Origin: Draconibacterium orientale | Lineage (GTDB): Bacteria > Bacteroidota > Bacteroidia > Bacteroidales > UBA1556 | Length of the DNA: 47,371 nt | NCBI GenBank assembly: GCA_020718275.1 | Contig: DYSI01000009.1 | Location: 1-47,371 of the forward strand | Reading direction: 5' to 3' | Shown here: positions 3,217-33,809 of the stretch, piece by piece | Numbering within the stretch: position 1 is the first letter of the stretch | Layout of the letters: each line of letters starts with the position of its first letter | Translations under genes and position numbers: made by a program | Notes under the pieces: generated by a model | What the model saw: only the letters and a program-made list of their open reading frames with translations | Databases searched by the model: none | What the model was told of the DNA's origin: nothing

Positions 3217-4227
3217 TTAAACGAGATTCGATAATAAAAAATCGCTCAATTCAGCCAAATTATCAAATTGTTGTTCGCCAAATTTTCCAGCCAGAAGCCA
3301 TTTTGCGGTCGAATCGTCAAACAATAAGGTGAGATCTGAGGGTTTCTCCGTAATGTCAAATCCCAATTTATTGAGTCCATTAAGAGTCCAAAAATGAAAT
3401 TGGTTGCCGATTTGAGGAACGAAATGGATTTGATGTGTTAAGGACCTACGAATTCTAAAAGCACCCATTTGTGGGTCGAAATGCAATGATAATTTTGAAA
3501 AAACGCGCTGCAAATTATCACTAAGAATTAAATCTTCGGGCGCACCGTCCAGAATCTTTCCCTCATCCACCAGCCAAAAACGATCCGCCATCTGAATGGC
3601 CAAATCCAACTCATGGGTCGAAATTAAGATCATCTTATGCTCCTGATGCGCCAAATCTTGGAGTAAATGCATTATTTCCACCCTGTTAATCAAATCGAGG
3701 TGTGCAGTAGGCTCATCCAAAATAATGATAGGTGTTTGCTGTGCCAACGCCTTAGCAATCATTACTCTTTGCTTCTCGCCATCACTCAAATGGTGAAAAT
3801 ATCTATTTGTAAGATTATCAATACCAACCTGTTGAAGACTTTTTTGAATTATAGCTAGATCATCAGTGCCTAATTTTCCTAGCCAATTGGTATGCGGAAA
3901 GCGACCCGAAGCTACCACATCAAATACCGATAAATTATGAGAAAGAACTGTGCTGGTAAGAACCACTGCAATCAACTTTGCCCAATTGCTTGACGAATTC
4001 TTAGAAACAAGCAGCTGATTAAAATACAATTCGCCAGAAACAGCAGGTATGAGTTGGGCTAAGGTGCGAATCAATGTTGATTTACCAGAACCATTGGGTC
4101 CCAATAAAGCAACTAAGCGTCCTGATTTGAGTTGAAGATTAATATTGAAGATGGCAAAATTTGGCGGATAACCGATACTGAGATTCTTGGCTTCAAAAAC
4201 GCAATTATGGATTTTATCGGGCTTCAT
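3217..4227 (-). CDS. ATP-binding protein of a FecBCD-type iron-chelate/cobalamin ABC importer
   Basis: Cytoplasmic ATPase of a metal-chelate importer (FecE/BtuD/HmuV group). Counting from the ATG at 4225-4227: Walker A GPNGSGKS at about 43-50, ABC signature LSDGEKQR at about 137-144, Walker B IIILDEP at about 157-163 and the H-loop in STHE at about 194. The reading frame is open to 4275, but that start would run deep into the permease; starting at 4227 gives a 14-base overlap with the permease stop and the expected N-terminus. The protein is 336 residues, about 80 longer than typical BtuD/FecE; the extra C-terminal part (from about 250) is a small appended domain, probably regulatory. Last gene of a binding protein-permease-ATPase operon. 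Confidence 0.91.
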   Translation of the reverse strand: MKPDKIHNCVFEAKNLSIGYPPNFAIFNINLQLKSGRLVALLGPNGSGKSTLIRTLAQLIPAVSGELYFNQLLVSKNSSSNWAKLIAVVLTSTVLSHNLSVFDVVASGRFPHTNWLGKLGTDDLAIIQKSLQQVGIDNLTNRYFHHLSDGEKQRVMIAKALAQQTPIIILDEPTAHLDLINRVEIMHLLQDLAHQEHKMILISTHELDLAIQMADRFWLVDEGKILDGAPEDLILSDNLQRVFSKLSLHFDPQMGAFRIRRSLTHQIHFVPQIGNQFHFWTLNGLNKLGFDITEKPSDLTLLFDDSTAKWLLAGKFGEQQFDNLAELSDFLLSNLV

Positions 4228-5242
4228 GGATTCTTTTGTTTTGAATAATAATCCAGATAATAACCGGCGCGCCAACTAGAGAGGTAACTGAATTAATTGG
4301 TAAAACAATATCAGAACCAGGCAATTGCGCAATCAAATCACACATGAGCATAAGAATAGCGCCAATCAACAAAACGGCTGGCAACAAAATGCGATGATCG
4401 TTAGTTCTAAAAACATTGCGTGCCAAATGCGGAACCGCAATGCCGATAAAAACAATTGGGCCTGCGAAAGCAGTAACAATCCCTGCCAATAGGCTACTAA
4501 TAATTATGACTAGAAAACGTATTTTACGAACCGAAACCCCTAGTGACAAAGCATACTCTTCGTTGATTAATAGCACATTAAGTGGTTTCATTAATTGAAA
4601 ACTGAGTATGATTGACACCAAAACTAAAGTAGTCATCATGCCTATTTCGTGCCAATGGATGCCGCCTAAGCTTCCAAATGTCCAGATAATAAAACGCTGA
4701 AGTAGTTCGGGAGAACTAAAATATTGTAACACACTTACCAAGGCGCCAGTAATGCTGCCAAACATAGTACCCACAATCAGCAGCGAAACAGAATCATGAA
4801 TTTTATGTGAGATTCCTAATACAGCCAAGAGAACTAACATTGCTCCTAAAATTGCGAAAAAGCTAATGCCTCCGGAGAAAAACCAGGCCGAAGCATAGAG
4901 GGTGGAACCACCCAGTAGAACAAAAATTGCAACCCCTAAGCTAGCACCACTGCTGATACCAAGGACATAAGGACCAGCCAGCGGATTGCGAAAAAGAGAC
5001 TGAAGCAACAAACCCGCCAATGGCAAGGCAAAACCTACTAAAATAGCGGCTATAGTTTTTGGCAGCCGCAATTCCCAAATGATATAATAATTCACTTGAG
5101 ATGATTCATCGAAAAATAAGGTGGAAAAAATATCGAAAAAAGGAATAAGTGTAGAACCAGCCATAAGGTTTGCAAAAATAGCACCCACTAAGATTACACT
5201 TAGTGCAGCAAACTTCCAAACCAATGAGGTATTTCTTGCCAT
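4214..5242 (-). CDS. FecCD-family permease of the metal-chelate/cobalamin importer
   Basis: A 342-residue polytopic inner membrane permease of the FecCD/BtuC family, forming the homodimeric channel of a type II ABC importer. Family hallmarks visible: RLPKTIAAILVGFALPLAG and QSLFRNPLAGPYVLGISSGA in the first third (the coupling and gate regions), FAGPIVFIGIAVPHLAR about two thirds along, and a C-terminal GAPVIIWII segment. About ten hydrophobic segments are present and length is typical. It sits 24 bases downstream of the binding protein gene and overlaps the ATPase gene by 14 bases, so the three are translated as one operon. The ligand is likely a siderophore, heme or cobalamin; no TonB receptor is in the operon to decide. 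Confidence 0.93.
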   Translation of the reverse strand: MARNTSLVWKFAALSVILVGAIFANLMAGSTLIPFFDIFSTLFFDESSQVNYYIIWELRLPKTIAAILVGFALPLAGLLLQSLFRNPLAGPYVLGISSGASLGVAIFVLLGGSTLYASAWFFSGGISFFAILGAMLVLLAVLGISHKIHDSVSLLIVGTMFGSITGALVSVLQYFSSPELLQRFIIWTFGSLGGIHWHEIGMMTTLVLVSIILSFQLMKPLNVLLINEEYALSLGVSVRKIRFLVIIISSLLAGIVTAFAGPIVFIGIAVPHLARNVFRTNDHRILLPAVLLIGAILMLMCDLIAQLPGSDIVLPINSVTSLVGAPVIIWIIIQNKRIHEAR

Positions 5243-5266
5243 AAAAAACTTATAAATACTTTATTT

Positions 5267-6418
5267 TCAAGGTGCTAATTGACTGTAATAATGCCATTGA
5301 GCATTATTAAGCTTCGGATGAAAAATACGAATTAAGTCGCTCAATAATTCATCGGGTCTACAAACTCCCCTTTCCCAATAATTATTGGCTCCATCAGCAT
5401 GCGATTGCAAGAGGTTATGATAAACCTGCTGTTGTCTGAAAGCTTTAAAAATACCGAAATCAGGATTTAATGCCAACATTTCGGCATAATTTCTTTGGGG
5501 AACTTCAATCCAAAAGTCTGCGCTTGCTTGCGCACTTACCACGGCCTCAAATCCTAAAGGCAAACTTGCATTCCCCACCTTCTCCTTCCAATGATAATTA
5601 GCGCCAGCATCAGCCAACAATATAGCTTTATAACTATTGCCAGCAGGCATATACCAAATATCTTTATAAGGAGTTCCAATAATAACATCGGGCTGATGAG
5701 CAACTGTTTTGGCTAAATGTTGTAGCCTAAAATACTCACTTTCAATCTTGGCAAAAATACTATCCGCTTGAATTGATTGATCATAAAAAAGAGCCACAAC
5801 TTTTATCCATTCCGCCCTACCTAAAGGTGTGTTTTCTAACCAATCAGCATTATAAAAAATAGATACTCCACCGTTTTTTAATTTTTCGGCAAATGGATCC
5901 ACACCAGCCATGGGAGTTTGAATTAATAAATCAGTCTTAGCCGCAATCACTCTTTCAATATCGATAAACTCACCAGAAACAAGTTCTATAATAGCATGAT
6001 TATCAACTTGCTGACGTACCCATAAATTATATACATGATGCTTAGCTGAAATAGCCTTAACACTGTTTAGCTCGCCCAAAGCCTCAATAAAACCAATGCT
6101 AGATGCCGAACTTAGAGCCACACGATTTATAGGCACTTCAACATGATATTCAAACTGAGACCATGTGCTATCTTTTTGATAGTTTTTGGAGTGCAGTAAA
6201 TAGGTATGCCAAATCTTGGTGGTATCCCAAGGATTGAGTAAAATGAGTTTTTTGGCAGCACCCCAATCTTCAACTCTTACATTTTTGATATATTTGAAAG
6301 TGCTAGCTTTTTTACCGCTTTCTTTAGCCTGATTGCTCACAATTGAATTATTACTGTCAGCTGAATTACAAGCCAATAGCACAAAAAAAGAAAGCAAAAA
6401 GACTAAAAGAATACGCAT
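5267..6418 (-). CDS. Periplasmic binding lipoprotein of the metal-chelate/cobalamin importer
   Basis: A 383-residue solute-binding lipoprotein of the helical-backbone class (BtuF/FepB fold, Peripla_BP_2). The N-terminus is a lipoprotein signal with the lipobox FVLLAC, Cys17. The first lobe carries the typical SSASSIGFIEALGELNSVKA stretch, and the second lobe begins around the DVIIGTPYKDIWYMPAG region, followed by a LADAGANYHW segment often seen in Bacteroidota members. It delivers the ligand to the permease encoded 24 bases downstream. First gene of the operon; no metabolite-responsive RNA leader could be recognised in the short upstream gap. Specificity for iron chelates versus cobalamin cannot be settled by reading. 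Confidence 0.9.
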   Translation of the reverse strand: MRILLVFLLSFFVLLACNSADSNNSIVSNQAKESGKKASTFKYIKNVRVEDWGAAKKLILLNPWDTTKIWHTYLLHSKNYQKDSTWSQFEYHVEVPINRVALSSASSIGFIEALGELNSVKAISAKHHVYNLWVRQQVDNHAIIELVSGEFIDIERVIAAKTDLLIQTPMAGVDPFAEKLKNGGVSIFYNADWLENTPLGRAEWIKVVALFYDQSIQADSIFAKIESEYFRLQHLAKTVAHQPDVIIGTPYKDIWYMPAGNSYKAILLADAGANYHWKEKVGNASLPLGFEAVVSAQASADFWIEVPQRNYAEMLALNPDFGIFKAFRQQQVYHNLLQSHADGANNYWERGVCRPDELLSDLIRIFHPKLNNAQWHYYSQLAP

Positions 6419-7897: not shown

Positions 7898-7957
7898 AAA
7901 TATAAATGTAAAGTATTTATTTATTGTTATTTAAAGCTAAGATAACTGATATAAAAA

Positions 7958-7986
7958 AACTGCCTTATTGATGCAATAAGGCAGTT
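7958..7986 (-). terminator. Rho-independent terminator after pepD
   Basis: A perfect 13-base inverted repeat (arms 7958-7970 and 7974-7986, core CTGCCTTATTG) around a three-base loop, followed on the minus strand by a run of seven to nine T. It lies about 30 bases past the pepD stop codon and should end the MFS-pepD transcript before terC. Confidence 0.87.
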
Positions 7987-8015
7987 CAAAAATAGTATAA
8001 AATAGATTTAAAATT

Positions 8016-9476
8016 CTATTTCTTTGGAATATTTGCTAGAGTGGCCACTAAGTAGTTCCAAAATTTATCTACAGACGCAATATTTACCTTTTCGTCAGGA
8101 GAATGAGGAAAGCGAATAGTTGGGCCGAAAGAAATCATATCCCAGTTAGGATAAACACTTCCGAGTAGTCCACATTCCAGACCTGCATGGATGGCTTTAA
8201 TTTCAGGTATACGACCATATAAATTTTGATAAACCTCTTGCATTTTGGTTAAAATCTCAGAATTAGGATTGGGTTTCCAGCCTGGATAACCACCTTCTAA
8301 TTCGATCTTAGCGCCTGCTAATTCAAAAACTGACTTAAACATTTCGCCTAGATCGTCTTTAGCAGATTCCACAGAGCTACGAAGCAAAGCTGCAATCAAC
8401 ACTTGATTTGCCTTGGTGCGCACGATGGCTAAGTTAGTAGAAGTTTCAACCATACCTTCCATATCGTCACTCAATCGCATAGCGCCATTGGGTGCTGCAT
8501 AGATTGCATTGATTACCCGCATCATAGTGTCGTAATCAATAATATCTTTAGGTAATTCTATAGGGCTAGCAATAAACTTTAAATCGGGTTCTTTTACATG
8601 CAACTCATCGAAAATAGTTTTTTCAAAATTACGGATGCAGTTCTCGAAAGAATCTTTCTCTGTTTGCGGAATAGTCACATTGGCAAAGGCTTCGCGAGGG
8701 ATTGCATTACGCAAACTACCACCCAAAATAGAGCTAATACGAAGACCATTATGTGCAGTAGCTTTTTTTAAAAAACGGAAAAGCAATTTATTAGCATTTC
8801 CTCTGCCAAGATTAATATCTAAACCAGAATGTCCGCCCTTTAAGCCTGTCAAAGACAGTTTATAAGCAATCATTCCGCTTGGAATGACCTCTGGAACATA
8901 ATCAAAAGTAATGCTCGCATCAATTCCACCGGCACAACCAATATATAATTCTCCCTCGTCTTCGGAGTCCATATTAATTAAAATATCTCCTTTTAGGAAG
9001 CTAGGTTTTAAACCAAAAGCGCCAGTCATGCCTGTTTCTTCATCGCAGGTAAAAAGTGCTTCGATAGGACCATGAGGAATATTGGAAGATTGTAAAATGC
9101 TCATTGCAGCAGCCACACCCATTCCATTATCGGCTCCTAGGGTTGTACCTCTCGCTTTTACCCATTCCCCATCGATAAAAGCATCGATAGGATCGTTTTG
9201 AAAATCATGGTTTTTATCGCTGTTTTTCTGTGGAACCATATCCAAATGACCTTGCAAAACAACCACTTTTCGATCTTCCATCCCTTTAGTTGCAGGCTTG
9301 CGAATAATGATATTCCCTACTTCATCTTTGATGGTTTCTAAACCTAAATTTTTACCGAAATTCATCATAAATTCCTGAATACGATCTTCATATTTTGAAG
9401 GACGTGGAACTTGAGTTAATGCGTAAAAATTCTCCCAAAGTGATTTGGGTTCTAGACTAATAATTTCTTTGCTCAT
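8016..9476 (-). CDS. pepD: Aminoacyl-histidine/cytosol non-specific dipeptidase PepD (M20C)
   Basis: A 486-residue cytoplasmic di-zinc dipeptidase that cuts unblocked dipeptides, including Xaa-His. M20 metal and catalytic residues are all visible: His77 and catalytic Asp79 in GHLDM, bridging Asp116 in LGADNG, catalytic Glu146 with Glu147 in DEETGMTG, Asp170 in NMDSEDEG, the lid-domain His430 in HAGLECG and terminal ligand His458 in HSPDEKV. The lid/dimerisation domain lies between about 185 and 390. Length is typical of PepD. It follows the MFS transporter gene by 11 bases, so the two form an operon: the likely pairing is uptake of dipeptides by the transporter and cleavage by PepD. A strong terminator follows. 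Confidence 0.95.
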   Translation of the reverse strand: MSKEIISLEPKSLWENFYALTQVPRPSKYEDRIQEFMMNFGKNLGLETIKDEVGNIIIRKPATKGMEDRKVVVLQGHLDMVPQKNSDKNHDFQNDPIDAFIDGEWVKARGTTLGADNGMGVAAAMSILQSSNIPHGPIEALFTCDEETGMTGAFGLKPSFLKGDILINMDSEDEGELYIGCAGGIDASITFDYVPEVIPSGMIAYKLSLTGLKGGHSGLDINLGRGNANKLLFRFLKKATAHNGLRISSILGGSLRNAIPREAFANVTIPQTEKDSFENCIRNFEKTIFDELHVKEPDLKFIASPIELPKDIIDYDTMMRVINAIYAAPNGAMRLSDDMEGMVETSTNLAIVRTKANQVLIAALLRSSVESAKDDLGEMFKSVFELAGAKIELEGGYPGWKPNPNSEILTKMQEVYQNLYGRIPEIKAIHAGLECGLLGSVYPNWDMISFGPTIRFPHSPDEKVNIASVDKFWNYLVATLANIPKK

Positions 9477-9487
9477 AATATATTAAA

Positions 9488-10882
9488 TTAAGATTTTTTA
9501 TTTGGTAAATCTAAGCCATAACCATGCTTACGATCAACGGCTTTAAGAACAAAACTCAAAACAAAGGCTAAGACCCCGAAAGCTGTAAAAATCAGCTCTG
9601 TGACAGTATAATCATATTTCACGCCTTGAACATTAGCAGCAATTTGCGCTGATACACCAGGATTAGAAGCTGATAAAGCCCATCCTATTAAAATTGGAAC
9701 AGCCAATAAACCAATGTTTTGAATCCAGAAAATAGCACCATAAGCTGAGCCTAAATAACGTTCTTCAACGATTTTTGGCAAGGAAGGCCACATAGAAGCA
9801 GGTACCAATGAAAAGGCTGTACCTAAGATTACAATGATAGATATTGCAGCAAAAACACTGAAAGATTCAGCTGGAATTAATGCAAATAAAAGGTGAGAAA
9901 TAGTTAATAAAACAGCTCCAAAAACCATCATGGTTGCGCCTTTACCTTTTACATCAAGATAATAACCAATAATAGGCGTCAGCACCATGGCTCCGATTGG
10001 AAAATATGAAAAATAAGCAGCAGCATCTTTAATCGATACATCAAGTTTAGACGCAAGCATATCTGTAGCAAATTTTTGGAAAGGGAAAATAGCGGAATAG
10101 AAGAGTACGCAAAGTCCAGCAATAGCTAAAAAGCCAGGATTTGAGAAAATCTTTCCAATGTCACTAATTTTGAATTCATCTTCTGGACTTGTTACAATTT
10201 CACCAGTTTGCTTATCCAAAGCTCTGTCCATAAAGGTATAAATGAAAAAAGTAATAAAACCAATTAGAAGAAAAGCTAAGCCCATATATACCGAGTTAGA
10301 TGGTCCGCCATTCTCAGCAAAAATTGGTGATAAACGGAATACAGCAAAAACGCCTAGACGAGCAACAGCCATTTCAAGACCCATTGCCAAAGCCATCTCT
10401 TTGCCTTTAAACCATTTAACAATTGTTTTTGAAACGGTAATACCGGCCATCTCAACTCCAACACCAAAAATAGAGAAACCAATAAAAGCGAGTTTTGCTG
10501 ATGCAGGAATCCATGTTAAGAAGCTATTGAGCGTAATAGCTAAATTTGAGTCAGCAAAGCCTTGAGTAAGCGCATAAAATTTAATGCTAGCACCAAGTAC
10601 CATCGTAATGCCAGCAGTAATTAGTGTGAAACGTATCCCCATTTTGTCAAGGATAATTCCAGAAAAAATTAAAAAGAAAGCAAAAACATTTAGAAAAAAC
10701 TCGGAGCCGCCAAGCATACCAAAGACTTCTGGCGTCCACTTATAAATTTTTTCCATTTCAGTTTGAAATGGAGCAACCACATCTACGAAAAAATAAGCGA
10801 AAAACATGGTTGAAGAAATCAATAGCAACGCTATCCATCTTGCCGTTTGAGAATCTCTCAGGCTTTGTTTAATTTGTTCCAT
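9488..10882 (-). CDS. MFS transporter resembling the dipeptide carrier MFSD1
   Basis: A 464-residue inner membrane protein with about 12 hydrophobic helices and a central cytoplasmic loop near 215-240. The region at about 138-177, with VEMAGITVSKTIVKWFKGKE followed by MGLEMAVARLG, closely resembles the matching part of eukaryotic MFSD1 as I recall it (EsLAvaqntyavsWFKGKElnlvFGLqlsmARiGs). Human MFSD1 is a lysosomal dipeptide uniporter. The next gene, 11 bases downstream, is the dipeptidase PepD, which fits a dipeptide substrate. What is seen: MFS fold, motif likeness, operon. What is inferred: dipeptide transport. It could instead carry another organic anion; MFS subfamilies are hard to assign by eye. 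Confidence 0.84.
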   Translation of the reverse strand: MEQIKQSLRDSQTARWIALLLISSTMFFAYFFVDVVAPFQTEMEKIYKWTPEVFGMLGGSEFFLNVFAFFLIFSGIILDKMGIRFTLITAGITMVLGASIKFYALTQGFADSNLAITLNSFLTWIPASAKLAFIGFSIFGVGVEMAGITVSKTIVKWFKGKEMALAMGLEMAVARLGVFAVFRLSPIFAENGGPSNSVYMGLAFLLIGFITFFIYTFMDRALDKQTGEIVTSPEDEFKISDIGKIFSNPGFLAIAGLCVLFYSAIFPFQKFATDMLASKLDVSIKDAAAYFSYFPIGAMVLTPIIGYYLDVKGKGATMMVFGAVLLTISHLLFALIPAESFSVFAAISIIVILGTAFSLVPASMWPSLPKIVEERYLGSAYGAIFWIQNIGLLAVPILIGWALSASNPGVSAQIAANVQGVKYDYTVTELIFTAFGVLAFVLSFVLKAVDRKHGYGLDLPNKKS

Positions 10883-11078
10883 ATAAATTTTTGAATTTAA
10901 TTAAAAAATTAGCTGCGAATTACGCGATTTTTTCGCATACCTGATACATCCCTACGCTAAAAATTACATACTTCTTCTTGATAATCTTGAACAGTATCTA
11001 AGAGTTTTCTATGATACAATGGTGTTTGCACAATAAAGCTGCTTACAATGCTTCGGCGAAAGGTGGCAACTTTTTAAA

Positions 11079-11105
11079 ATTATTAAAAAAAAACGTTTTA
11101 ATAAT
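11079..11105 (-). terminator. Possible weak terminator hairpin after birA
   Basis: A 10-base perfect inverted repeat made only of A and T (arms 11079-11088 and 11096-11105, seven-base loop) six bases past the birA stop. On the minus strand it is followed by TTTAAAAAG rather than a clean T run. The stem has no G or C, so termination is uncertain. Confidence 0.32.
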
Positions 11106-11110
11106 CAAAA

Positions 11111-24137: not shown

Positions 24138-27100
24138 TTATCGCATCAAATACATTTTACCGAAACTTTTCTTAAAATACTGATCAGCACCTGATTCTCG
24201 ATGCTCAATGCTTTCGCCATTGAGACGTGTAACCACTCGATAAAGATAAACCCCATTTGCCAATAAATCACCGTATTCATCTCGACCATCCCAAGCGTAC
24301 TCAGTGATATTTCTACCAATATGCAAGGGTCCTAATTCGTTCATATCAATTTCTCGAACCAATTTACCACTTACTGTAAGTACTTGTATTTTAAGATAAT
24401 CAGGCACACTAGAACCAGTTAAGGTAAAAACAAAATGAGTTTTATCAGTAAATGGGTTTGGCCAATTTAGCATATTTGTTATGGTGGATTTATTGATTAT
24501 TACAAAGTCAATTTTGTATCCATTTTCGCCTGATTTATTACTAGATGCATCATTGGCATAAACAAGTAGTTCATATTCACCATCTTCCAATTGTGGGCGA
24601 TAAACTACTTGAGCACTATTATCGGGTAAATTGGCTGGAATAAACTCTAATAAATTGGCGTCTTTAAAATAGACATCCGTATAATTGATCATTTCGCTTT
24701 TCTTGATGCGAACCTTAAAAAGTGAAGTATCGTTGATAGCTTTAAATTTGTTTTCATCTCTTAAACCGATGGTAATTTCAGGTCGAGCCGAAACAATATC
24801 ACCATTGAGAATATGAATCCCGTCGAAGGTGACTTCCAGAAGTGGATTTTCAAGATCGCGTTCAACAAAGAAAGGGATATCACCCGTATTATTAGAATGT
24901 GTTATCTCCAATTGGTCATAAACGCCAGTAATATTATTGATTGGGTTTATTTCTAGGTAAAGAAAACATTGACCAAGTAAATTCATCGTTGCAAGTTCAA
25001 TTGTATCATTTAAAACTGAGTTTGCCAGCAATGGCGAAATTCGCCGTTCATTTAGCGGGATTATTTCCCCGCTATTAGTCTTTACCCAAGTTCGCACCAA
25101 CAGGCTATCAAAATTACTATTGCTAAGATTTCGATAGGCAATATTTAAACGCACGCTATCTCCTTGCAATACAGTATCCGCATAGAAATTGAATAAACTA
25201 ATGGGGTCAATAGCCGCTTCAGGCACGCTTTGGTAAATAATCGACCATTCATCGAGATAAGCAGGGGTGCGAGCCGAATCATCGCGCATATAACAAACTA
25301 ATTTACAATAAGGATAAACCGCTGCATCCATCCTATCATTCAGCGAATAAATATCACTGCTATCAGGTGGAATGCCATCGATAATGACCTGACTTGTTCC
25401 ATCAGCTTTATAACCAATTAGTTGTAGACATACAGAATCAACACTTCCTTTACTCATATCGTCTAAAGTATGCTGTTTCCAATGCAATGAAGACCATTTT
25501 CGGGATGGTCCAATCATGGGTGATTTAATCAAACCCTCGTTCCAATTGGTTATGATACTATCTTTCATCTGCAGCAATGTGCTAGGGTTTGTTGAGATAA
25601 CCTCATGAGCACCACCCATAGATCCTTTTTGACCATATATAATAAATGGCGTTGCGTTTGGAATATTCCGAATATAGGCACTTCCAATAGTATCAAAAGC
25701 TTTGTACAAATATTCAGGCCAACTTTGAGGATGGGCATCGCAATAGCTCATGGCCAATACCATGCTTCCATCAGGAATTTGGCCTAAAAATGTGGCCGCA
25801 CGCCTAAACCAAGTAGTATCTTGAATAACGGATGGAATCCCGAATGGATTCAAATCGCTTGTGCCAGTTGGAAATTCGATGCATGGAAAATTATAACCAG
25901 TACAGTGAATATTTCCAAATTGACCAAAACTCCAACCATAGCTATTAGACCATAATAATTCAGCAGAAACTGGATTAAAAATATAATATTTCATTCCTCC
26001 GACATTAAAAGGAATACAAGACCATGCACCAAATATACTGTTGTTGAGTCGTAAATATATTTCAGTGCCCGGTACCAAGGGATAAGTACCAGTTTGCGCA
26101 ATAATTTGTTTTATATCGTTTACAAAAGCAAAAGTTCTTTGATCTTCAATGTATTTCGTTAGTTGATATTCATTGTTCTTAAATTGTAGAAAATGTGATT
26201 GTGACCAACCTTGCTGAGAATTTACATAACGAAATGAGCTGTTTCTCCAATTATAATCATGTTGTGCATTAGAATCTAAACTCACTCGCCAATAATAAAC
26301 CATACTATCTTGCAAAACAATAGGCGGAGTCCAACTTAGCACGCCACCACTACTTTGAAACTGATAACTAAGTTTTGCAGGCGAATTAAAATGATCCGTG
26401 GTATCCAATTCAAATACATAATCATTTATTGTAGAAAAAGGGTAATAAGTAGATGCTTTGAGAGTAATAGTAGCCGAAGGCACAATAGCAAATTCAGGTG
26501 GGTAAACTGGTGTAAGATCTGCCGCTTTGATATTTAAACTGATTACCAAATTATTATTGCTTTCACTTAATTCATTAATAAGATTGTAGCCATCAATTGT
26601 GACCACAATATCATTATTTCCAATACCATACGAACGATCTACGGGCATTTTAATGGAGATTGTATCTCTAAAATAAGGCGCAGGAATCATATATGAATAC
26701 AAATCAACGCTATCTTTATTAGGATAGGAACGTTTCACATCGATTAATAAACTATCTCTAACTGCCATACCCACATTATTGATTACAAAATTGAAATCAA
26801 AGCTATCCACGGCGGTAGAAACTAAGCTAGGAGTATAAAAAACATTTTGAGCTTCAATGGAAAAATCAGGTTTTGGAGCAGCGTTTATGTGGAGCAGTGG
26901 ATCGCCATGCAAAGTCATTTCCAAACATAGCTCTTTGATTCCTGCACTTGGAAATTGAATATCCTTGATGGATTGTTGAATAATTTTCCCTACACTTTCG
27001 CCATAATACCTTGATGAAAAACCTTGGTAAAACTGACTTGAATACGTATTCAATAAGGAAGGGTAAGCTGGGGTAACAGAGGCAATATAAGCAATCATAC

Positions 27101-29201
27101 CTTTATCCCGTATGAGTACAAACTCTTCGGATGAATTAGCCGAGCTCGTTCCTGTGTATTGAAAAATATCGCCCGCAAAACAGCTATTAGCAACTAAAAC
27201 AGGATATTTTCCATAATTGTCATATTCTTCCGGATTATCAATACTAATATCGAAACCTATTCCTGCTGCATGTCCGAAGAAAGTCATCAAGCTAACGCCG
27301 TGATTAACATATTCTTTAATTTTTTCACTTAAGTTAATTTGAATTGGGTCTGAGGTAGTTTTATAAAAAGTATATACCTCGGCACCAAAAGAAGTATCGC
27401 TAGCAATGTCAGCATAATTGTTAAGAAAAATAGAAAACAATGATTGCTCAAAACTGGTACTGCCGCCACTAAAATGCAGGATTCGCTTCATCCATTGGTC
27501 ATATGGAAACTGATTACGGTCTTCGTGCAACATGATTTTTTCGAGATACAAATCCACATGGTCTAGATTCATTGCACTCAATCGACCAATTGGAATTGCA
27601 GGCTGAAATAAAGTATCAATCAATCCGCTTATAAGTTGAACATCCGAAGGTGGATTGCCCATGGTAGGTACGAGCGTTCCTGCGAAAAGGGTGGAATTTT
27701 TGCGATAATCCCTAGCACGATAAGCCTTCCCAATTATAAATAATCCTTCAAACTGATCATAGCCATAAATAACCCCCAAAGCTTTTACAAAATTGCGAAT
27801 AGCCATCGGGTTTTTATGAATTCCATACGAAAATTGATCGTATAATTCTTCAATATTTACTAATAATGTATTGCTTCCCATTGTATTACGATAGGCAGCA
27901 TAATCCGTAGCTGTGGCATAAGCCCCCCCAGAACCCATTAAACTTGGATGCGTAATAATGATATAATCTGCATTTGGATTTTGATTGAGGTAGTTTGTAA
28001 ATTTACCACTAGGAGTAACCTTTTTCAAACTAGTTACATTTTTAATTTTAGACTCTGCACCTAAATAACAACGTTTTACACCTCCTCCATTCGGTATAAG
28101 AGCCTGATAATTAGTACCATTTTTAGTAACCTTAATTCTTAGATGCTGATCGATATCCCATAAAGTTGGATTAGTACCCCCATTAAAATTACTGAAATTA
28201 AAATAAGACTTAGTTTGATTGCTTGCATCATTAATCAGCATAAAAAATTCGTTACGTCCTTCCAAATCAGGAGTATGTGGATATACAATTCGCAAATAAG
28301 GTACTGCAAATCGATCTGCTCCACTTCCTAAATCATTTACTGAACTAAATACAAAATCAGTATTAGTTGAAGACAAAGCGCTGGTATTGACTGCTTGGTG
28401 AAATATAAGACGTTGATAACCTGTGTAAATGGAATCAAAAGTAAGCCCAGCAACTTGAGCCAATAAGTGGTGATCTGCCTGAGAACCGTTTACGAAATAC
28501 GAATTGCTCATTACCTCAAAATATACCTGCGCCAGTGGTCCGTTGGCATAAGCATTTTTAGTGGTTAAACTACGAGTTCGGCTAGTGCCAAGGCTAATTA
28601 CATAATCATAAAATCCTTCGCCATCAGCATATGAAGGATCTGGTACATAATCGCTATTGACGTTTATTTTTACCCCGTCAATATATTCATAATTGAAATA
28701 TTGGCGTGCATCGTAGGTGAAATAGTTGGAAGCAGTATAAGCCGAATAATTGACATCTGTGCTTACCGTTGCACGATTATTAGTAAGTAAATTATTCCAA
28801 GTAAAGTAATAAAAGGCGGTATCTGTAAACAAACTATACGCTGTATTTGGCTGATGATCAGGACTTACATATAAGGCTGAATCATACCAACCATCATTTT
28901 TTTCTGCATAAAATTCAATATAATCATTTACTCCAAAAGTTCCGCTCAATTCATTGTTAACGTAAATATGAAGCTGCTCCCCTCTTCCAAAAATTTGCAT
29001 ATTTCGAGGGTGATTAATACTTTGCAAAGGAACTCCAGCATTTAAAAGGCTATTGTATGAAATACGATAGACCCCCGTCTCTACCACAGGAATTTTATAA
29101 TAATACTGATTGTATTTAATCCAAGAGTTACTTCCAACTTGGGCAAGCAGCCAAAAACTGTTCAAGACAAAGATGAAGCTTAAGATAATATTTCGAAACA
29201 T
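24138..29201 (-). CDS. PorU2-like gingipain-family (C25) peptidase of the type IX secretion system
   Basis: A 1687-residue secreted protein. Signal peptide about 1-20; N-terminal PorU-like region with YKIPVVETGVYRISYNSL and DYIEFYAEKNDGWYD; C25 caspase-like peptidase at about 410-770 with catalytic His644 in FFGHA and Cys674 in ANSCFAGD; then CARDB/Ig-like repeats (for example near LSESNNNLVISL and DLTPVYPPEF); and a C-terminal FlgD-like/Por domain starting at NWPNPFTDKTHFVF and ending GKMYLMR. This matches the group annotated as putative sortase PorU2, longer than classical PorU (about 1150 residues). PorU trims sorting domains of T9SS cargo and attaches them to the surface. Three bases downstream of a PorV/PorQ gene. 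Confidence 0.88.
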   Translation of the reverse strand: MFRNIILSFIFVLNSFWLLAQVGSNSWIKYNQYYYKIPVVETGVYRISYNSLLNAGVPLQSINHPRNMQIFGRGEQLHIYVNNELSGTFGVNDYIEFYAEKNDGWYDSALYVSPDHQPNTAYSLFTDTAFYYFTWNNLLTNNRATVSTDVNYSAYTASNYFTYDARQYFNYEYIDGVKINVNSDYVPDPSYADGEGFYDYVISLGTSRTRSLTTKNAYANGPLAQVYFEVMSNSYFVNGSQADHHLLAQVAGLTFDSIYTGYQRLIFHQAVNTSALSSTNTDFVFSSVNDLGSGADRFAVPYLRIVYPHTPDLEGRNEFFMLINDASNQTKSYFNFSNFNGGTNPTLWDIDQHLRIKVTKNGTNYQALIPNGGGVKRCYLGAESKIKNVTSLKKVTPSGKFTNYLNQNPNADYIIITHPSLMGSGGAYATATDYAAYRNTMGSNTLLVNIEELYDQFSYGIHKNPMAIRNFVKALGVIYGYDQFEGLFIIGKAYRARDYRKNSTLFAGTLVPTMGNPPSDVQLISGLIDTLFQPAIPIGRLSAMNLDHVDLYLEKIMLHEDRNQFPYDQWMKRILHFSGGSTSFEQSLFSIFLNNYADIASDTSFGAEVYTFYKTTSDPIQINLSEKIKEYVNHGVSLMTFFGHAAGIGFDISIDNPEEYDNYGKYPVLVANSCFAGDIFQYTGTSSANSSEEFVLIRDKGMIAYIASVTPAYPSLLNTYSSQFYQGFSSRYYGESVGKIIQQSIKDIQFPSAGIKELCLEMTLHGDPLLHINAAPKPDFSIEAQNVFYTPSLVSTAVDSFDFNFVINNVGMAVRDSLLIDVKRSYPNKDSVDLYSYMIPAPYFRDTISIKMPVDRSYGIGNNDIVVTIDGYNLINELSESNNNLVISLNIKAADLTPVYPPEFAIVPSATITLKASTYYPFSTINDYVFELDTTDHFNSPAKLSYQFQSSGGVLSWTPPIVLQDSMVYYWRVSLDSNAQHDYNWRNSSFRYVNSQQGWSQSHFLQFKNNEYQLTKYIEDQRTFAFVNDIKQIIAQTGTYPLVPGTEIYLRLNNSIFGAWSCIPFNVGGMKYYIFNPVSAELLWSNSYGWSFGQFGNIHCTGYNFPCIEFPTGTSDLNPFGIPSVIQDTTWFRRAATFLGQIPDGSMVLAMSYCDAHPQSWPEYLYKAFDTIGSAYIRNIPNATPFIIYGQKGSMGGAHEVISTNPSTLLQMKDSIITNWNEGLIKSPMIGPSRKWSSLHWKQHTLDDMSKGSVDSVCLQLIGYKADGTSQVIIDGIPPDSSDIYSLNDRMDAAVYPYCKLVCYMRDDSARTPAYLDEWSIIYQSVPEAAIDPISLFNFYADTVLQGDSVRLNIAYRNLSNSNFDSLLVRTWVKTNSGEIIPLNERRISPLLANSVLNDTIELATMNLLGQCFLYLEINPINNITGVYDQLEITHSNNTGDIPFFVERDLENPLLEVTFDGIHILNGDIVSARPEITIGLRDENKFKAINDTSLFKVRIKKSEMINYTDVYFKDANLLEFIPANLPDNSAQVVYRPQLEDGEYELLVYANDASSNKSGENGYKIDFVIINKSTITNMLNWPNPFTDKTHFVFTLTGSSVPDYLKIQVLTVSGKLVREIDMNELGPLHIGRNITEYAWDGRDEYGDLLANGVYLYRVVTRLNGESIEHRESGADQYFKKSFGKMYLMR

Positions 29202-29204
29202 AGA

Positions 29205-30290
29205 TTATTCCTCCTTACTTTTTTTAATATTAAAACTATATTTCAAGCTAAAAACATTGGAATAAAGTGCAATCGACTGATTTCCAATATCTGTAAAGGC
29301 ATAGTCAATACTGAATACTTGTTTAATTTGAATACCAAGACCAATATTTGGTTGAAAAGTAAAACGTTTAACGTCATCTGGCATGCTTTCCTTTTGAACA
29401 TTACCAACGCCAGCCCTAAGAAAAACTATTTTCTTAAAATCTACTTCTAAACCAAGATGCGGATCCACACTCAAGGTTCCAGAATTTATCAAAACGTTGC
29501 GCATTCCATCGGTGCTTACGTCCATATCTAATTCGGTGAGTAAGCTAAATTGATCTCCAAAAGAAAAGTTCTTTCCTACGGCAAAAATTGCTTTTGGCAA
29601 AGTCAGCTCAGTGCTATTTTTGGGGATGGTATTTCCAGTGAGGGCATAAACCGCTTTCATCTCATCATCTAGTTGATAACTCCAAGCATTGAAAGTGGTG
29701 GAGACATCGCGAAGCATCAAACCAAACTGCCATGATTTTAGCGTATATTGAGCAGCTAAATCGATACCGAAGCCCCAAGAAGATCCGAAATCGCCAACTT
29801 TGCGACGGATTATCTTGACATTACCACCCAAATTTAGTCCTTTGATGGAGGTAGAATGTGCATAAGAAAGTAAAACAGCTATATCAATCGCACTAAAGCT
29901 AGTTACTTTATCATAATTTATATTTCCCTGTCCGTCAATCAGTTCAGAAGTATTAGGAATATTATCGACCCCAAAACGGATTAACGATAAAGCACCTGCA
30001 CTTTTCTCGCTGAATTTTGCGGCCATGGATCCATAGTCGTATTTTGCGATTCCTGCAAAATATTCTGAGTGCATCAAGGCCACTTCCCGCTTGGTTTTTA
30101 TCCCCAATAAAGTTGATGGATTCCAATAGCCAGAATAAACATCCTGATTGCTAGCAACCACAGAATTTGACATACCCAATGCACGGGCGCCTACGCCAAT
30201 CGATAAAAATTCATTACTATATTTCACGCTTTGGGCATTTAATATAACTGAATTTATTAGAAATATTAGCGTTATAAAGATTATTCGCAT
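29205..30290 (-). CDS. PorV/PorQ family outer membrane protein
   Basis: A 361-residue outer membrane barrel of the PorV/PorQ (UPF0164) family, which bind and shuttle T9SS cargo to the surface sortase. Signal peptide about 1-19; the family hallmark SIGVGARALGMSNSVVA at about 31-47, followed by SGYWNPSTLLGI; many alternating strands and a terminal aromatic strand VFSLKYSF before a short charged tail. It precedes the PorU2-like gene by three bases, as expected for a functional pair. Length is closer to PorQ/short PorV. Which of the two it is cannot be settled here; P. gingivalis keeps porU and porV side by side. Confidence 0.87.
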   Translation of the reverse strand: MRIIFITLIFLINSVILNAQSVKYSNEFLSIGVGARALGMSNSVVASNQDVYSGYWNPSTLLGIKTKREVALMHSEYFAGIAKYDYGSMAAKFSEKSAGALSLIRFGVDNIPNTSELIDGQGNINYDKVTSFSAIDIAVLLSYAHSTSIKGLNLGGNVKIIRRKVGDFGSSWGFGIDLAAQYTLKSWQFGLMLRDVSTTFNAWSYQLDDEMKAVYALTGNTIPKNSTELTLPKAIFAVGKNFSFGDQFSLLTELDMDVSTDGMRNVLINSGTLSVDPHLGLEVDFKKIVFLRAGVGNVQKESMPDDVKRFTFQPNIGLGIQIKQVFSIDYAFTDIGNQSIALYSNVFSLKYSFNIKKSKEE

Positions 30291-32358: not shown

Positions 32359-33809
32359 ACGAAAAAAATTTTCACCTTACTTTTTTACATCTTCTTTATT
32401 AACTAAAGTTTCGTTTTTACTGATTCCGGTAAGACAAAATATCATGTAATTATCGACCATGATGGCGCAATTGACGATATGCGCACAATTTCTATGTTAT
32501 TAGCTATGAATGATTTACAAGTTTTAGCAATTACATGTTCGCAAGGAACATTGTCGCCGTCATCAGGGGCAATGAAAGTAAACTCTCTCCTTGCTCAGTA
32601 TTATCATAATGGATTCCCAATTGACAGAAGTAACACCATTGATTATCCATACCCTTCGTGGAATAGATATGCAGAAGGAATCCAATGGGGAAATGAATAT
32701 ACAAAAGTTCGATTTGCTAAAAATTCCATTGAATTGTTAAACAGTGTTTCGGCAAATTATCTGCATAAAATAACGCTAATCGCCTTAGGATCACTAAAAA
32801 CCTATGCCGATTGGTTTAAAAACAATCCTTCGATTGCTCAAAAAGTTGACCGAATAATATGGTACAATGCTAGTGAACAAAATACTTGTTTTAATTATTT
32901 AATTGATACCGCAAGTTTTTCTTTTTTTCAGAAATCGAATATTCCATAGCAAATAGTATCAAACGACCGACACGATTTAATTTGTAACCAAGAATATTTG
33001 GCTATTTTGAAATCAACTAATTCAATGTATGCAAGTCATCTCTAAGATGTTCACCAACAATCATCTGTGTTCGAAAAAGTAAAAACAGAACCACATGCAA
33101 CTGTGGGATGATCTTGTTCCGATATGGCTAGTATCACCAGACTTATTTTAGCGCTAAAACCCTTAAGAATATTAGCTATATAACTGTTAATCAAACTATT
33201 TCCTCCAGCACTATCTATCAACATATTACTGAAATACTAACGCCAAATACTGCTATATATAACCGTGTTTTCAAGTATTTTCCAATTGACAGCAATCTAT
33301 ATCAAAGTGATTATGCCGAAATCATAAAAACAACCATTAGCAAATATGGAGAGGTAGAATGGAAAGCCATTACAATGACCAATGAAATACATGGCCACAC
33401 AGGGATATACTCTATCATTGGCGCAAAAATGGGCATTCGCGCCTTAGAATTTTTTCATGTGGGAGTTAACAATATAAAAGCAACTAGCTATACAGGAACT
33501 AAGCCACCCTTGAGTTGCTTGAATGATGGCGTACAAATTAGCAGTGGAGCCACTATTGGACAAGGTTTAATAACGATTGCTGATACGGTGTTGAATATTC
33601 CAACCCTCATTTTTGAATGCAATAATCAAATTATCAAAATGACTTTAAAGGAAAATATTGCCCATCAAATGCAAGAAGACATAAAAATTGGAATAAAAAA
33701 TTATGGAATGTCAGATGAATATTGGCATTACATCGAAGATGTTGCCATAAAATATTGGGATGTATACGACCGTCATGAAATTTTTGATATTGAAAAACTA
33801 TCAGAATAA
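32359..33809 (+). pseudogene. Decayed nucleoside hydrolase-FmdE fusion gene
   Basis: The remains of one gene for an exported protein of about 480 residues. In order: a signal-peptide-like KKIFTLLFYIFFIN after an ACG where ATG is expected (32359); the nucleoside hydrolase metal motif DHDGAIDD (32455-32478) with LLAMNDLQVLAITCSQG; the hydrolase body; and an FmdE-type domain with NEIHGHTGIYSIIGAKMG and PPLSCLNDGVQISSGATIG. Lesions: stops at 32404-32406, 32947-32949 and 33043-33045, a frameshift near 33106-33109 and another in the T run at 33146-33149. Between lesions the reading stays protein-like. The two open pieces (32479-32949, 33375-33809) are fragments, not separate genes. The multiple lesions argue against sequencing error. 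Confidence 0.86.

Follow-up and report, generated by a model that had tools for sequence, protein, structure and literature searches.

MFSD1 is a lysosomal dipeptide uniporter that works without ion coupling and rejects single amino acids and tripeptides; it was deorphanised only in 2024 and has been described as phylogenetically unassigned (PMC10990142). Its partner GLMP is needed for stability, not for transport (PMC10990142). In MFSD1, the dipeptide sits between E150 and R181, with Y56, D60, Y276, W373, Q396 and N397 around it, and transport was lost in most of the pocket mutants tested, including D60A, E150A, Q176K, R181A and W373A, of which the Q176K protein still binds peptides without transporting them (PMC11252000). 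MFSD1 is listed in a table under TCDB 2.A.1.53 (PMC9333335). In bacteria, Porphyromonas gingivalis lives on dipeptides made by S9 peptidases, and the import of these dipeptides has been credited to the POT and OPT carriers (PMC8048996).

Here we describe a locus in which the gene for an MFSD1-like carrier stands beside a gene for the dipeptidase PepD. It lies in a contig of Draconibacterium orientale (the window, which is the whole stretch of 47,371 nucleotides that was analyzed). We consider it likely that the two genes are co-transcribed and that the MFSD1-family carrier imports dipeptides across the inner membrane, with PepD as a cytosolic dipeptidase.

The carrier and pepD genes

The features of the locus are as follows.

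10883..11110, minus strand: 228-nt intergenic region 5' of the carrier gene, the expected promoter site
9488..10882, minus strand: MFSD1-like MFS carrier, 464 aa, from the open reading frame and searches, with a 12-helix MFS fold
9477..9487, minus strand: intergenic gap of 11 nt, the carrier gene being first and pepD second
8016..9476, minus strand: PepD, an M20C cytosolic dipeptidase, 486 aa, from the TIGR01893 and 3mru matches
7957..7987, minus strand: intrinsic-terminator-like hairpin after pepD, with 14 pairs, a 3-nt loop and a T-run

The carrier gene runs from 10882 to 9488 and pepD from 9476 to 8016, with the same 11-base spacing that an earlier note had read between them. About 28 nt past the pepD stop codon, the hairpin at 7987 to 7957 has 14 pairs that are followed by TTTTATAT. 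It is the longest of four hairpins in the region; since shuffled sequences give 2.7, the number of hairpins is at chance level, and it is the placement and the stem that make this terminator-like hairpin convincing. In the 228-nt region 5' of the carrier gene, matches to the promoter consensus were no better than chance, and the Bacteroidetes -7 promoter motif TANNTTTG was likewise at chance level in the whole window. Because the promoter matches were at chance level, the 11-nt spacing and the hairpin are the grounds for co-transcription, and they suggest that the carrier and pepD share one messenger. The earlier note had proposed one messenger with a strong terminator; the short gap and the hairpin are both there, while the single messenger would follow from the two together. 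Beyond the 228-nt region, the first gene that lies upstream of the carrier gene on this strand looked by eye like a biotin-protein ligase gene.

The pepD product matched NCBIfam TIGR01893 (beta-Ala-His dipeptidase) over its full length with 623.7 bits (cut-off 343.75), and the aminoacyl-histidine dipeptidase 3mru with an E value of 3e-166. The residues of the M20 metal and catalytic motifs (H77, D79, D116, E146, E147, D170 and H458), whose roles we take from M20C enzymes generally, are present in the protein, and a signal peptide was not evident in it. Since the motif residues are kept and a signal peptide is not evident, PepD is likely a working cytosolic dipeptidase. The window's genome contains one more PepD copy, which is less similar, making two in total.

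Three other regions of the window were noted by eye. A likely iron or cobalamin ABC uptake set (ATPase, permease and binding protein) forms one run at 3217-6418. At 24138-30290, a secreted-looking protein of 1687 aa and a membrane-barrel-like protein of 361 aa stand in tandem and resemble PorU and PorV of type IX secretion. Two consecutive short open reading frames (156 and 144 aa) at 32479-33809 look like the parts of a single nucleoside-hydrolase-like gene, broken by a frameshift or an error.

Family and substrate pocket of the carrier

The best named relatives were metagenome genomes of Bacteroidales, with up to 81% identity, and Pfam matched the carrier only to the general MFS_1 family. 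When the carrier was searched against all PDB sequences with phmmer, mouse MFSD1 (8r8q) was found at 5.4e-24 and there was no other believable match. A profile of 26 relatives found MFSD1 in the PDB at 1e-54, the next match being an SLCO carrier at 0.14, and a distant member of the gene cluster described below matched MFSD1 at 1.1e-47, with the next match at 1e-5. In the reverse direction, residues 40-414 of mouse MFSD1 found the carrier locus at 3.0e-23 as the sole match in the window's genome (71% complete), and they also found homologous loci in most of the relatives, at up to 1.3e-47. A search of plasmids gave only four Bacteroidota copies, and weak MFS matches with MFSD1. By sequence searches in both directions, the carrier belongs to the MFSD1 family. 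The earlier note had pointed to this likeness, and MFSD1 is indeed the only meaningful match among PDB sequences. The identity between the carrier and MFSD1 is only about 31%. A quick tree put mouse MFSD1 on a very long branch, and we claim no position for it among the bacterial homologues.

Matches to carriers of the nitrate, oxalate and lactate types were much weaker or absent, and MFSD1 was by far the best match by sequence. An SfMCT/OxlT-type anion carrier for oxalate or lactate was rejected, since the nearest NCBIfam model, SfMCT, gave 35.9 bits, far below its cut-off of 320.

The comparison with Pht-type amino acid carriers matters because TCDB 2.A.1.53, under which MFSD1 is listed, is named for them. 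As stand-ins we used two plasmid-borne MFS proteins of L. adelaidensis, which we take to be Pht-like from their gene context beside phosphopentomutase. In hhalign, with MFSD1 left out of the family profile, MFSD1 was matched at 5e-38 and the Legionella Pht-like protein at 5e-13. This weak match and the TCDB listing (PMC9333335) are what favor a Pht-like carrier that moves single amino acids or some other small metabolite, with PepD close by because both serve amino acid supply. We regard such a carrier as improbable, since the Pht-like proteins are far below MFSD1 and do not have the pocket signature described next, and MFSD1 moves neither single amino acids nor tripeptides (PMC10990142). For the same two reasons of score and pocket, assignment of the window carrier to the Pht amino acid carriers was rejected.

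The residues WFKGKE and MGLEMAVARLG, which the earlier note had read in the region 138-177, are residues 157-162 and 167-177 of the carrier. In the alignment with MFSD1, the window carrier has Y30, D34, E144, R175, Y262, W365, Q388 and N389 at the positions of Y56, D60, E150, R181, Y276, W373, Q396 and N397, and F280 and L400 of MFSD1 are likewise kept. Among 179 bacterial homologues, E150, R181, Y276, W373 and Q396 (MFSD1 numbering) are kept in all 179, Y56 in 178, D60 in 171 and N397 in 167. As a control, the set of pocket residues was absent from those other MFS carriers in these genomes that could be aligned; it was also absent from the two Legionella Pht-like proteins. The pocket matches that of MFSD1 by alignment.

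An AlphaFold2 model of the carrier made with 43 aligned relatives had a pLDDT of 91 and a pTM of 0.90, and Foldseek against the PDB gave MFSD1 (8r8q) as the top match at 9.5e-12, the second match being weaker by almost two orders of magnitude. The purely structural VIA-align list of 50 did not show MFSD1; this list seems to track the conformational state and does not discriminate within the MFS.

Some contact residues are changed in the window carrier: Q176 of MFSD1 to E170, Y365 to F357, Q393 to F385 and Y59 to V33. At the Q176 position, the 179 homologues have E in 99, N in 43 and Q in 32, and E170 is a candidate proton-coupling residue. The carrier of the Bacteroidia branch could then be a proton-coupled dipeptide symporter working through E170, which would be a variant of dipeptide import and not exclusive of it. 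E at this position in 99 of the 179 homologues, most others having N or Q, is consistent with such coupling, as are the MFSD1 Q176K protein, which binds peptides without transport (PMC11252000), and the proton gradient available to a free-living cell. On the other hand, MFSD1 itself is uncoupled, and in the distant PepD-linked branch, in which Y59 is kept, the Q176 position is mostly N, so the acid is not a constant of the family. We therefore hold proton coupling to be a tentative and rather unlikely addition to dipeptide import.

Several features of the homologues were noted beside these comparisons. The Q176 column, which has E in roughly one half of the homologues and mostly N or Q in the other, offers a natural contrast for proton coupling. 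In a subgroup of six loci (L021, L022, L028 and L163-L165), most of which encode longer proteins of about 560 aa, Y replaces the pocket residue D60, and four of the six members are linked to PepD in the stretch examined. About 13 Bacteroidales loci (L044, L046, L055-L057, L070, L071, L073, L076, L086, L095, L101 and L105) have a second MFSD1-like paralogue in tandem with the first. These second copies have D at the Y59 position and group apart from the others; the second paralogue might have another substrate or pair with the first.

Carrier and dipeptidase genes across genomes

We took the carrier and PepD as linked when they were within 1 kb of each other, with the positions compared inside the same genome. 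The two genes were adjacent in 14 of 48 carrier-bearing relatives and in 24 of 48 carrier-bearing genomes of a phylum-wide sample. Adjacent pairs were always on the same strand in these 14 and 24 genomes. The carrier-first order of the window was found in 11 relatives, whereas PepD came first in the other 3 and in all 24 genomes of the wider sample. For comparison, POT and PepD were no more than 1.2 kb apart in 1 of 54 genomes, and OPT and PepD in 7 of 22.

The link is patchy. In a tree of 108 rows, the linked and unlinked states change at least 19 times, some of the "unlinked" rows merely ending at a contig edge. PepD was present in only 3 of the 80 closest named Bacteroidales loci, in a stretch of at most 10 kb on each side. 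In the phylum of the Holophaga-labelled genome, where the carrier family is common, no carrier was beside PepD among the matches listed. Because PepD is rare in the nearest Bacteroidales and was not seen beside the carrier in the Holophaga-labelled phylum, it is not an obligate partner. The recurrent link with a dipeptidase that the earlier note anticipated does exist across genomes, with M20C adjacency accompanied by OPT and M29, but it is patchy, and rare in the nearest named Bacteroidales loci.

If the carrier were an unrelated MFS protein, a chance neighbor of a housekeeping dipeptidase, the missing linkage in most close Bacteroidales relatives would be explained. However, half of the carrier-bearing genomes in the phylum-wide sample have the two genes adjacent, where chance would give about 0.2 of 48 (our own estimate, based on no more than three copies of PepD in about 3.5 Mb). 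Adjacency also occurs in both gene orders, and the carrier is part of a conserved cluster with OPT and M29. Chance neighborhood is strongly disfavored by the adjacency counts and we find it very improbable.

In the wider sample, genes recur in a fixed order. OPT is followed by a PqqD-domain protein, PepD and the MFSD1-like carrier, and then by a roughly 251-aa protein that has no Pfam match and an M29 aminopeptidase. Over 43 loci, the same-strand counts are 29 for M29, 26 for PqqD, 25 for OPT, 23 for PepD and 22 for the 251-aa protein, and many of the loci outside the full cluster retain OPT or M29 without PepD. In one relative (G036), the genes follow in the order MFSD1-like carrier, OPT, PepD, POT, and a short PqqD-like gene separates OPT from PepD. 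Four Bacteroidales loci have directly upstream an S9 dipeptidyl-peptidase-like gene whose product has a signal-like start, and three have POT directly downstream. This company of S9, POT and OPT is telling because P. gingivalis uses S9-made dipeptides through POT and OPT (PMC8048996). From their gene content, the neighborhoods look like peptide-using operons. As a separate observation, the PqqD-like protein in the cluster loci L111-L154 (for example L144, L137 and L136) is without other PQQ genes in the stretch.

The same neighborhoods bear on the direction of transport. Uniporters work in both directions and PepD also serves normal protein turnover, and the carrier could in principle be an exporter or overflow carrier for dipeptides or amino acids at high cytosolic peptide turnover. 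Since the neighbors are uptake systems (OPT and POT) and peptidases, which favor uptake, and since an exporter of dipeptides would have a dipeptidase competing for its substrate, export appears quite improbable.

A proposed dipeptide route and its relation to known systems

For the import of dipeptides by the window carrier, we infer the dipeptide substrate, the direction of transport, any coupling to protons and the co-transcription with pepD. Extracellular or periplasmic dipeptides would enter the central cavity of the carrier, where E144 may hold the peptide N-terminus and R175 the C-terminus, with D34, Y262, W365, Q388 and N389 forming the rest of the pocket. The carrier would then go through a rocker-switch cycle that frees the dipeptide into the cytoplasm. 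PepD would cut the dipeptides to amino acids, and the resulting low internal dipeptide level would pull uptake forward. With PepD removing the product, amino acids could be supplied even by a carrier that is not coupled to ions.

Transport by MFSD1 from lumen to cytosol is topologically equal to bacterial uptake, and the pair would thus be a bacterial counterpart of the lysosomal route, as the earlier note had proposed. The family, the pocket and the PepD linkage agree with this proposal; uniport is a property of MFSD1, and the window carrier has the extra pocket acid E170. The note had also set the route apart from POT/PTR. The carrier is indeed outside PF00854 in the Pfam search, but the window's genome also has a POT gene (at C33). 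Since POT coexists, the carrier would be an additional dipeptide route and not a replacement, and it is likely one of at least two dipeptide routes in this genome.

In a search of 5.39 million open-access papers, we found none that describes MFSD1 relatives in bacteria as a branch, or a carrier-PepD operon. We lean slightly toward the broader view that MFSD1 is a wide, so far unrecognized bacterial family of dipeptide carriers in peptide-use operons (OPT-PqqD-PepD-MFSD1-unknown-M29) of the Bacteroidota in the broad GTDB sense, with the animal lysosomal carrier as one branch and with bacteria as simple models for the mechanism and for gain or loss of proton coupling at Q176. If MFSD1 has a large branch in bacteria that shares its pocket and is linked to dipeptidases, this would place the phylogenetically unassigned MFSD1 and would supply proteins for structures in other states. 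Simple growth assays on its members could address the questions of substrate and coupling. Such a branch would further mean an unrecognized peptide-uptake route in protein-eating Bacteroidota, beside the POT and OPT of P. gingivalis (PMC8048996).

Compared with known systems, PepD of the window is an ordinary member of the beta-Ala-His (Xaa-His) dipeptidases of M20C (3mru, 2qyv), and nothing notable differs. The Legionella Pht family (2.A.1.53) consists of distant MFS relatives of the carrier. POT/PTR2 (PF00854) shares the MFS fold and the same proposed job, and stands in the same cluster in the relative with both carriers. OPT (PF03169), which was not found in the window's genome (71% complete), is also recurrently beside PepD and in the same cluster in distant members, but it is a separate family, to which the window carrier has no match. 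The closest system is MFSD1 (8r8q; PMC11252000, PMC10990142), from which the bacterial carrier would differ in its setting: MFSD1 is lysosomal, whereas the bacterial carrier is predicted to lie in the inner membrane and to share an operon with a dipeptidase gene.
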